Below are positions 30,956 through 32,650 of a stretch of 39,210 nucleotides of DNA, piece by piece. The stretch is from positions 1-39,210 of the forward strand of contig VBEF01000056.1 in assembly GCA_005881275.1 (NCBI GenBank), read 5' to 3'. The translations under genes were made by a program, and so were the position numbers. This DNA is from Chloroflexota bacterium. GTDB taxonomy: Bacteria > Chloroflexota > Dormibacteria > Dormibacterales > Dormibacteraceae. Numbering within the stretch: the first letter of the stretch is position 1; each line of letters opens with the position of its first letter. The notes beneath the pieces are model-generated. The model made no database searches, was not told the origin of the DNA, and saw only the letters and a program-made list of their open reading frames with translations.

Positions 30956-31553
30956 TCGTCCGCGGCTCGTCATCGCGACGGGCAACGCAGGCAAGATCGG
31001 CGAATACCGAGAGCTGTTGGCAAACGCGGGCGTGGAGCTGGTCGCCTTCGACACGGAGGTCGACGAGGCGGGGGAGACGTACTCCGAGAACGCTCGTCTG
31101 AAAGCGGAGGCCGCGTTGTCAAAATCGGGCCTGCCGTCGTTGGGTGACGACTCCGGCCTCGAGGTCGAAGCGCTGGGTGGATTCCCGGGCCTCAAGTCGG
31201 CGCGGCTGGGCCCGACGCAAAAGGAGAGGACGGCCGAGCTCCTGCGGAGATTGCAGGGGGTGCCGCGGCCATGGAAGGCGCGTTTTGTCTGCGTCATCGC
31301 GCTGGCTGTTGCGGGGCGTGACACGCGCTTTTTCGAGGGTGAATGTCGGGGCGAGGTCGTGCCGGAGTGGCGGGGCGAGGCGGGTTTCGGCTACGACCCG
31401 ATCTTCCTCGTGCCAGGAACGGGCAAGACGTTTGGCGAGATGCCGCCCGAGGAGAAGCGCAGGTACAGCCACCGCGCCGCCGCGGCCCGCGCGCTGCTAC
31501 AGTCGGGCGCGCTGTCGGAGCTCTCTGCTTCAATCGACAAGCGCGGGCGGTAG
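30948..31553 (+). CDS. rdgB: XTP/dITP diphosphatase (non-canonical purine NTP pyrophosphatase)
   Basis: Hydrolyses dITP and XTP to prevent their incorporation. The 201 residues show [19 protein letters not shown] (about 6-24), the [12 protein letters not shown] metal site (about 42-53), [21 protein letters not shown] (about 66-86), [14 protein letters not shown] and [10 protein letters not shown]. The start is TTG 30948. The last ten bases, including the TAG stop, lie inside the downstream tRNA-Pro gene. Confidence 0.95.
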
Positions 31554-31620
31554 CTTAGCTCGGTAAAGCGCCTGGTTTGGGACCAGGAGACCGCGAGTTC
31601 GAATCTCGCCCGCCCGACCA
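31544..31620 (+). tRNA. tRNA-Pro (anticodon UGG)
   Basis: The acceptor CGGGCGG pairs with CCGCCCG, and CCA is encoded. The anticodon stem CCTGG/CCAGG encloses TTTGGGA. The T arm GCGAG-TTCGAAT-CTCGC is perfect. Positions T8-A9-G10 double as the rdgB stop codon. A degenerate copy of its 3' half lies at 32440-32482. Confidence 0.96.
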
Positions 31621-31624
31621 GGTT

Positions 31625-31630
31625 TAAGCT
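31625..31630 (+). promoter_or_regulatory. possible -10 box for the methyltransferase gene
   Basis: TAAGCT, 10 nt before ATG 31641 and 5 nt after the tRNA-Pro CCA end. The leader would be only a few bases. Confidence 0.4.
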
Positions 31631-31640
31631 CCACAGGCAT

Positions 31641-32435
31641 ATGAGCAGTGTCGCAAACGACTCCGTCGGCGACCTCGGCAGGCACGTCCCCGCGCTGTCT
31701 TCGGCTCTCCGCCCGCATCCTCTCGACGAGCTCAGGGAGTGGGGCGGCTCGCCGCTCGTCCGCGGGAAGCGCGTCCTGGACCTCGGGTGCGGCGATGGCC
31801 GCTTGGCGCTCGGGGTCGCGCGGTTCGCCACAAGGGTTGAGGGAATTGATCCCGACCCCGCGGCCGTTGCTGCCGCGAAAAGGAACGCGCGCAAGGCGGG
31901 TGTCCGAAACGTGCGCTTCACCGCCGGCGCGGCGCAGCACCTGCCATATCCAGATGCGGCCTTCGACCTGGTGATCCTCTCCTGGACTCTTTGATGAATT
32001 GCGCGAAAGGGCATGGTCGATGCCCTCGTCGAGGTACACAGGGTTCTCGCACCCGGCGGGATCCTGGTCGACGCCCGGCCTGATTCGCGCGTCCCGGCGT
32101 ACGCGGAGCGCCGGAAGCCGCGGGGATTCCAGCGCTATGGAGTCGTAAACACCTCCAGGCTAGAGCTTGCGAACGATCGAGCGTCCGATCGCGCCATCTC
32201 GCTCGTGGTGCGCGAAGGGTTGTTCAAGCGCACGCGTGGCGGCCGCTTCTGGCATCGCGTACCGTTCAGCGACCTCGCCGAGCTCCGCAAATACCTGTGG
32301 GAGCATCTGCGCTTCGTGCATCGAGCGGAGTGGGTCGTCGGTGTCGCGACGCGTAAGCACCATGCGAACGACCAGTTCGTCATCCGCCGTGCCGTCCGCT
32401 ATGAGCTCCTCGAAGCGTTGCCTAGTCGGATCTAA
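31641..32435 (+). CDS. SAM-dependent methyltransferase with two adjacent in-frame TGA codons (candidate selenoprotein or disrupted gene)
   Basis: Class I methyltransferase. From ATG 31641 the frame is open to TGA TGA at 31992-31997 (codons 118-119), then open again in the same frame to TAA at 32433-32435, for 264 codons in all. Motif I is VLDLGCGDGR (45-54), the acidic end of strand 2 is EGIDPDP, and motif IV is FDLVILSWTL, immediately before the TGA pair. After it come IARKGMVDALVEVHRVLAPGGILVDARP and about 80 further coding residues. The domain is continuous across the stops, so both halves belong to one protein. A SECIS-like hairpin follows the TGAs. Alternatives are a pseudogene or reinitiation at ATG 32013. 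The methylation substrate is unknown. Confidence 0.7.
32004..32028 (+). other. SECIS-like hairpin downstream of the TGA pair
   Basis: GGGCAT (32009-32014), loop GGTCG (32015-32019), ATGCCC (32020-32025) form a perfect 6-bp stem. CGA (32004-32006) can extend it with TCG (32026-32028) across an AA bulge. The stem begins 11 nt after the second TGA and the loop 17 nt after it. The E. coli fdhF SECIS, as I recall it, has the same 11-nt spacing and a GGUC-containing loop. The hairpin also encodes GMVDA, so chance pairing remains possible. Confidence 0.45.
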
Positions 32436-32439
32436 GGTG

Positions 32440-32482
32440 GCCATCAGGGGGAACCGCGGTTTCAAACCTCGCCCGCCCGACC
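32440..32482 (+). repeat. degenerate copy of the tRNA-Pro 3' half (possible attachment-site remnant)
   Basis: The last 31 bases (32452-32482) align without gaps to tRNA-Pro 31590-31620 at 27 of 31 positions, including an identical CTCGCCCGCCCGACCA end. The T stem is no longer fully paired. A match to the 3' strand of the anticodon stem (CAGG) precedes it, but no 5' half of a tRNA is found upstream, so it is a fragment. It is the right-hand boundary of the methyltransferase segment. Confidence 0.7.
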
Positions 32483-32650
32483 ATGACTGAGGAGATCGCC
32501 GGCCTACCTACGTCCTTGCTACGTAGCCGCGCATCTCAGCCTCCAATACGCGCAAGGCCCAGGCCTGGCACCCGGATCCAACCGGAGGTTACACACCCAG
32601 TCTCGCTATGAGTAATCTCGCGATCGCTGGACGAATTAGCGCCGAAAACG
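32483..32650. other. non-coding interval
   Basis: About 170 bp between the tRNA fragment and the stop of the minus-strand ABM-like gene. It contains short A/T-richer patches such as AGCGCCGAAAACGCTAA (AGCG/CGCT hairpin, 32639-32655) that might act as a weak terminator. No coding frame was recognised. Confidence 0.4.

Follow-up and report, generated by a model that had tools for sequence, protein, structure and literature searches.

The window, a stretch of 39,210 nucleotides from a Chloroflexota genome assembly, contains a predicted methyltransferase gene whose frame runs through two adjacent TGA codons. With a probability of roughly nine in ten, this is a bacterial selenoprotein gene in which the adjacent UGA codons would both be decoded as selenocysteine (Sec) under one SECIS element, and, at the level of sequence, it very probably stands for a new family of selenoproteins with a dyad of adjacent Sec residues. 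We consider it likely that these are bacterial enzymes with an active-site Sec-Sec dyad, one SECIS serving both UGAs, in which Sec and Cys are often swapped and the two positions are never both Cys, i.e., a vicinal selenol methyltransferase unable to dispense with selenium. A candidate UU selenoprotein (U, Sec; C, Cys) had been proposed in a first-pass annotation of the window, and it is now supported by the restriction of the dyad to Sec or Cys, by the sel genes of the host genome, and by a covarying hairpin at a fixed distance.

A methyltransferase frame read through two TGA codons

The features of the gene are the following:
31641-32435, forward strand: predicted class I SAM-dependent methyltransferase gene, read via two TGA codons, 264 residues, terminal TAA at 32433
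31785-31802, forward strand: motif I GCGDGR, residues 49-54, from the alignment of 21 members
31992-31994, forward strand: first TGA, codon 118, predicted Sec (Cys in CU members)
31995-31997, forward strand: second TGA, codon 119, predicted Sec (Cys in UC members)

The first-pass annotation described a single methyltransferase frame with adjacent TGAs at codons 118-119 as its sole internal stops, and the stop scan agrees, finding TGA 31992 and TGA 31995 and none else. The motifs it had placed on the two sides, LVILSWTL before the dyad and EVHRVLAPGG after it, are present as described. The Pfam model Methyltransf_25 scored 83.0 bits against the read-through protein (cut-off 27) and 64.2 bits against the pre-dyad part alone, and 32013-32435 alone matched no Pfam family at E 0.001; from these values, the halves on either side of the dyad form one domain, which bears out the earlier view that both belong to one protein. 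Motif I, with G49, C50, G51, G53, and R54 invariant in the 21 aligned members, is presumably the SAM-binding loop. By its Pfam match, motif I, and fold (see below), the protein is classed as a class I SAM-dependent methyltransferase, the activity itself being predicted. Comparing the window gene with seven relatives, dN/dS was 0.17-0.35 past the dyad and 0.21-0.32 before it; judged by sequence comparison, the region beyond the TGAs is under purifying selection and used as protein. A gene caller halting at the first TGA yields a protein of 117 residues, as in the open reading frame list for this window, and such genes are easily missed.

Distribution of the family and variation at the dyad

When the read-through protein was searched against 151 genomes, two-TGA relatives with 83-89% identity came up within the genus and in a single genome from a second genus of the family. 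There were also more distant two-TGA relatives (34-45% identity) and, in three genomes of the same genus, a one-TGA copy (74-77% identity). A profile was then built from 21 members with Sec written as Cys, i.e., CC at the dyad. Run against 400 genomes of the phylum, it produced, in 47 genomes, 52 matches scoring 122.8 bits or higher, all containing TGA. The N-terminal fragment of a frame-broken gene in one genome (G019) followed at 118.8 bits and, this fragment aside, the next match below the family scored 79.1 bits and had no stop. Actinomycetota, to which Brachybacterium sp. Z12 belongs, yielded matches at E 1e-22 in 8 of 396 genomes. Seven of these carry TGA (CU in five, UC and UU in one each), and the eighth, at 84 bits, has His-His in place of Sec/Cys. 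Pseudomonadota (398 genomes) contributed three matches of 77-80 bits, all His-His, and Gemmatimonadota (249 genomes) none at E 1e-20, where full scoring was limited to six candidates per genome (10 for Gemmatimonadota) and a poor-scoring member could escape. Viral contigs held 32 relatives (best E 2e-11, best profile rescore 38.9 bits). Of 21 plasmid records, none reached 80% query coverage, and two Paracoccus plasmid loci carry residues other than Sec/Cys at the dyad.

The combined set comprised 69 distinct dyad sequences from 64 genomes: 52 places from the 400-genome profile search, 9 further genomes from the 151-genome search, 1 other, and 7 from Actinomycetota. Not counted are L033 and the N-terminal frame of L119, two fragments that end short of the dyad. 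As the sequences are related and their counts overstate independence, the distribution of 46 UU, 16 UC, 7 CU, and 0 CC is to be read as a description of the family. For the residues that homologues should carry at 118-119, the first-pass annotation had named Cys-Cys or Cys/Sec. One part of this stands, since in all 69 distinct dyads TGA is aligned only with Sec or Cys; the other does not, as a Cys-Cys member was found in 0 of the 69 distinct copies, despite the CC profile. Given that the profile itself reads CC at the dyad, a CC gene would not have scored worse. On a quick tree built with the dyad masked, the dyad type changed at least 13 times, never to CC, a rough count considering several long branches and uneven support. 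This lack of a Cys-Cys member makes the role of selenium over sulfur testable. Assembly errors, which had been put forward as a way to refute the idea, are ruled out because the TGAs recur in many separate assemblies.

The exchange between dyad types also bears on the possibility of two compensating frameshifts without recoding. A stop-free detour around the dyad does exist on inspection of the sequence. However, a single base in one codon separates UC and CU members from TGATGA, with no shift of frame, and the 67 distinct 36-nt stretches around the site align without gaps, so that frameshifting is refuted by the UC and CU members and we assign it next to no probability.

Some genomes hold more than one copy: two UC copies lie about 4.9 kb apart in G166 (L101), and a UU copy and a CU copy are on different contigs in G444 (L103/L120). 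In L119 (G019) and L032 (G459) the frame is broken upstream of the dyad, through assembly error or decay.

A covarying SECIS-like hairpin at a fixed distance

Downstream of the dyad lies the following feature:
32009-32025, forward strand: SECIS-like hairpin, 5' arm GGGCAT (32009-32014), loop GGTCG (32015-32019), 3' arm ATGCCC (32020-32025)

This is the 6-bp stem that had been pointed out earlier, with the same loop and spacing: the hairpin starts 11 nt past the second TGA and the loop starts 17 and 20 nt past the two TGAs. We take the 11-nt distance to be that of E. coli fdhF; bacterial SECIS elements tolerate a range of spacings. Across the family, all six Watson-Crick pairs are formed at the same offset in 64 of the 69 sequences, and at least five pairs, G-U included, in all 69; these sequences are related and the figures do not represent independent trials. 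The worry that the stem merely reflects the coding of GMVDA did not hold, since shuffling synonymous codons of the 64 genes (each with its own usage) gives 1.6 expected complete stems versus the 64 present. In the ungapped alignment of the 67 distinct 36-nt stretches, 95.9% of cells are paired, versus 24.7-59.2% when the partners are slid along as a control, and a seventh pair (32008/32026) is formed in 50 of the 67. Double changes were counted in 22 cells, compared with a shuffled mean of 3.0, and six of the seven pairs show one. The number of further pair types is not in excess (9 versus 8.4 in shuffles, reached in 223 of 500). The stem variants include GAGCAT/ATGCTC, GAGTGT/ACACTC, AGGCGT/ACGCCT, and GGACGT/ACGTCC, and in the loop the G at column 25 is invariant.

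The folding energy of the window hairpin is unremarkable (z from -1.3 to -1.8 in three stretches), and single-sequence energy was dropped as evidence; the significance of the hairpin comes from conservation and covariation. Rfam models run on 31400-32600 returned a tRNA-Pro alone and no SECIS match. By position and covariation, a SECIS-type hairpin is thus predicted at a suitable distance. SelB and Sec-tRNA would be recruited twice in succession, at the first UGA over a distance of 14 nt to the hairpin and at the second over 11 nt, and a single SECIS would support both deliveries. Either spacing seems sufficient by itself, given that UC members use only the first (14 nt) and CU members only the second (11 nt). 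This natural set of UU, UC, and CU genes, with one hairpin at a fixed distance, is a ready series for studying how SelB handles consecutive codons and how much latitude the spacing allows.

These data can be set against a decaying gene, with the TGAs as nonsense mutations. Two in-frame stops would be expected from decay, and the relatives L032 and L119 look frame-broken. On the other hand, each of the 69 distinct copies (64 genomes) keeps TGA at one dyad position at least, the sequence past the dyad is under selection, and the hairpin covaries; decay is refuted on these three counts as an explanation of the family, and its probability is negligible.

Sec machinery and co-occurrence

The host genome (2.94 Mb, 127 contigs, 86% complete) was searched for selA, selB, selC, and selD, as the first-pass annotation had advised, and all four components were present. 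The selB gene (341.3 bits) adjoins selA (504.7 bits) on one contig, both over the curated cut-offs, and selD (287.7 bits, also over its cut-off) is on another contig and runs to the contig end. The selC part is a tRNA-Sec that scores 69.3 bits, above the gathering score of 47, and has the anticodon TCA according to ARAGORN. The earlier remark that sel genes are lacking is true of the window, to which it was confined; they sit elsewhere in the genome. The selD gene (L010 1531-1533) itself contains an in-frame TGA, at residue 23 of the translated stretch, and SelD of this genome is probably a selenoprotein as well, judging from that codon. A second SelB-like stretch (G000:C126:24352-25449), with 196.7 bits against a cut-off of 242.25 and a match to positions 2-324 only, is probably another elongation factor.

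Among the genomes with a family member, 61 of 64 have selA over the cut-off (26/27 in one set and 35/37 in the other), and in three it is absent (G007, listed as 95% complete, G360, and G746). In the set of 151 genomes, selA over the cut-off occurs in 111, the window's genome included, with 25 of 26 members versus 86 of 125 others (G019, later a member, being among the others); since the genomes are related and not independent, the Fisher p of 0.003 is a guide only.

In view of this machinery, a TGA that is reassigned or read as another amino acid without Sec is very improbable. The product does need read-through. Against reassignment, TGA ends 11 of 25 long open reading frames of the window that were picked by hand, the alternative residue at either dyad position is always Cys, and both the Sec machinery and the hairpin are present. 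Code reassignment was rejected for these reasons.

Position of the dyad in the fold and putative function

The AlphaFold2 model (mean pLDDT 86.3) shows the protein in a class I fold; strand 108-114 precedes the dyad and helix 122-135 follows it. The Foldseek matches listed from the PDB are methyltransferase-fold proteins, many of them small-molecule methyltransferases. The dyad would be located right behind strand beta-4, near the methyl-acceptor pocket of class I enzymes, a corner that we assume to face the methyl group or the methyl acceptor. His residues at this corner are catalytic in enzymes such as RebM; a literature search on RebM catalytic residues returned nothing usable.

Outside the family, four non-Sec proteins from other phyla (L183, L186, L187, and L188; 76-85 bits) give gap-free alignments in which His-His occupies the dyad, as it does in the PDB sugar methyltransferase AtmM (6uv6). 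The four may represent a near sister family of His-His methyltransferases, going by their alignment, which for L183 and L186 spans most of the profile. The next 20 matches within the phylum (65-80 bits) have mixed residues, and only five are His-His. Single cases are Cys-Phe (the best match, G232), Ala-Ser, and Ser-Glu, and two are Met-Cys. In six more, Cys-Cys lines up with the dyad only if strand 4 is given a gap of 5-6 residues; with scores of 65-73 bits and no stops, we take these to be misaligned UbiG-like proteins. Since His-His is not general among the non-Sec relatives, less weight is given to the readings with a soft acceptor and a selenium-dependent dyad.

As a tentative proposal, based on position and the likeliest of the functions considered, two selenolates, or a selenolate and a thiolate, could bind a soft metal, a metalloid, or another soft acceptor for methylation. 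The acceptor site would then consist of two soft ligands, which follows from the dyad's inferred position near the methyl group, and a metal, metalloid, or chalcogen acceptor would be favoured. A 2026 inventory assigns CU motifs to further proteins whose names refer to metal chemistry, HgcA, MbdU, and SaoL (PMC13188914); they suggested the metal idea and do not test it. In the genomic contexts read, the neighbouring genes contain no pointer to metals or to any substrate.

The same selenoprotein could instead use the dyad as a redox switch, where a diselenide (a selenenylsulfide in UC and CU members) toggles methylation, or the fold could have been turned into an oxidoreductase. The exchange of Sec and Cys at both positions, with at least one Sec always kept, is in line with this, and most uncharacterised selenoproteins are probably redox proteins according to an excerpt of a 2026 review. 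Nevertheless, motif I is invariant or nearly so in the 21 members, which suggests a working methyltransferase, and the PDB matches listed are methyltransferase-fold proteins, so that we regard a redox role as rather unlikely. Less probable again is a methyl relay, in which one selenolate accepts the SAM methyl group and hands it on. Sec is a strong nucleophile, and the dyad should sit near the methyl group as inferred from the modelled fold; by itself, however, a relay leaves Cys-or-Sec at both positions unexplained.

Relation to known selenoproteins and methyltransferases

The vicinal selenol methyltransferase proposed here shares features with several known systems. MduS (NF045649) is likewise bacterial, with a class I methyltransferase domain and two Sec; however, the window protein scores 48.8 bits against its cut-off of 380, which reflects the common domain only. 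The ArsM selenoproteins (NF041536 and NF041537) and MTase/UXPK-star (NF047649) also have Sec in a SAM methyltransferase, and the ArsM types are alike in their soft-element chemistry, whereas the window protein reaches only 46.1, 60.3, and 59.9 bits against cut-offs of 575, 510, and 460, respectively, these matches too being confined to the common domain. In the 2026 inventory, the MduS motif is CxxU and those of the ArsM types and NF047649 are UxxG, one also having CxxU (PMC13188914). An NCBIfam scan of five members found none passing among the best 25 models for each. The nearest solved sequences include AtmM, RebM, and TleD, which together with L183 and L186-L188 share the fold (TleD has Cys-His at the dyad) and differ in having no internal stops and far lower scores than family members.

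Adjacent selenocysteines are almost unheard-of. The only such protein found in print is PDI_e of algae, with a GUGUU motif, described in the consulted part of the source as the first adjacent Sec-Sec protein (PMC7539508). In contrast to the present family, it is eukaryotic, and it is described with a eukaryotic SECIS and, for most members, a domain of thioredoxin-like fold (PMC7539508). It is unrelated to a methyltransferase. The inventory table, which covers 119 prokaryotic selenoprotein families, contains no UU motif (PMC13188914). Among the matches listed in searches of the open literature on adjacent or methyltransferase Sec, no bacterial UU appears and PDI_e is the sole adjacent Sec-Sec protein. 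Two tandem UGA codons are mentioned in an overlapping frame of a viral gene in the available part of one further paper (PMC11510084).

Genomic context and a tRNA-Pro repeat

For the genomic context, 41 stretches, counting that of the window, were grouped into clusters, and Pfam was run on 10 representatives and on 9 genes of the window. Several clusters were pieces or antisense readings of the methyltransferase and were excluded as neighbours. The remaining neighbours are lineage-specific, with ADH_N and UPRTase in one family and GH57 and class I lysyl-tRNA synthetase in another; in the window, the methyltransferase gene is surrounded by ordinary housekeeping genes. Two further features flank it:
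31544-31620, forward strand: tRNA-Pro (TGG), immediately upstream of the methyltransferase gene
32453-32483, forward strand: 31-nt copy (87%) of the tRNA-Pro 3' end (31590-31620), just past the gene, a possible attachment-site-like repeat

Between the tRNA-Pro end and the repeat copy lies only the methyltransferase gene, which may have entered the genome as a small island at this tRNA. No such repeat was seen in L023, L024, and L025. In L022 an 18-nt version of the repeat is present, 833 nt apart, and L021 has three 18-nt copies.
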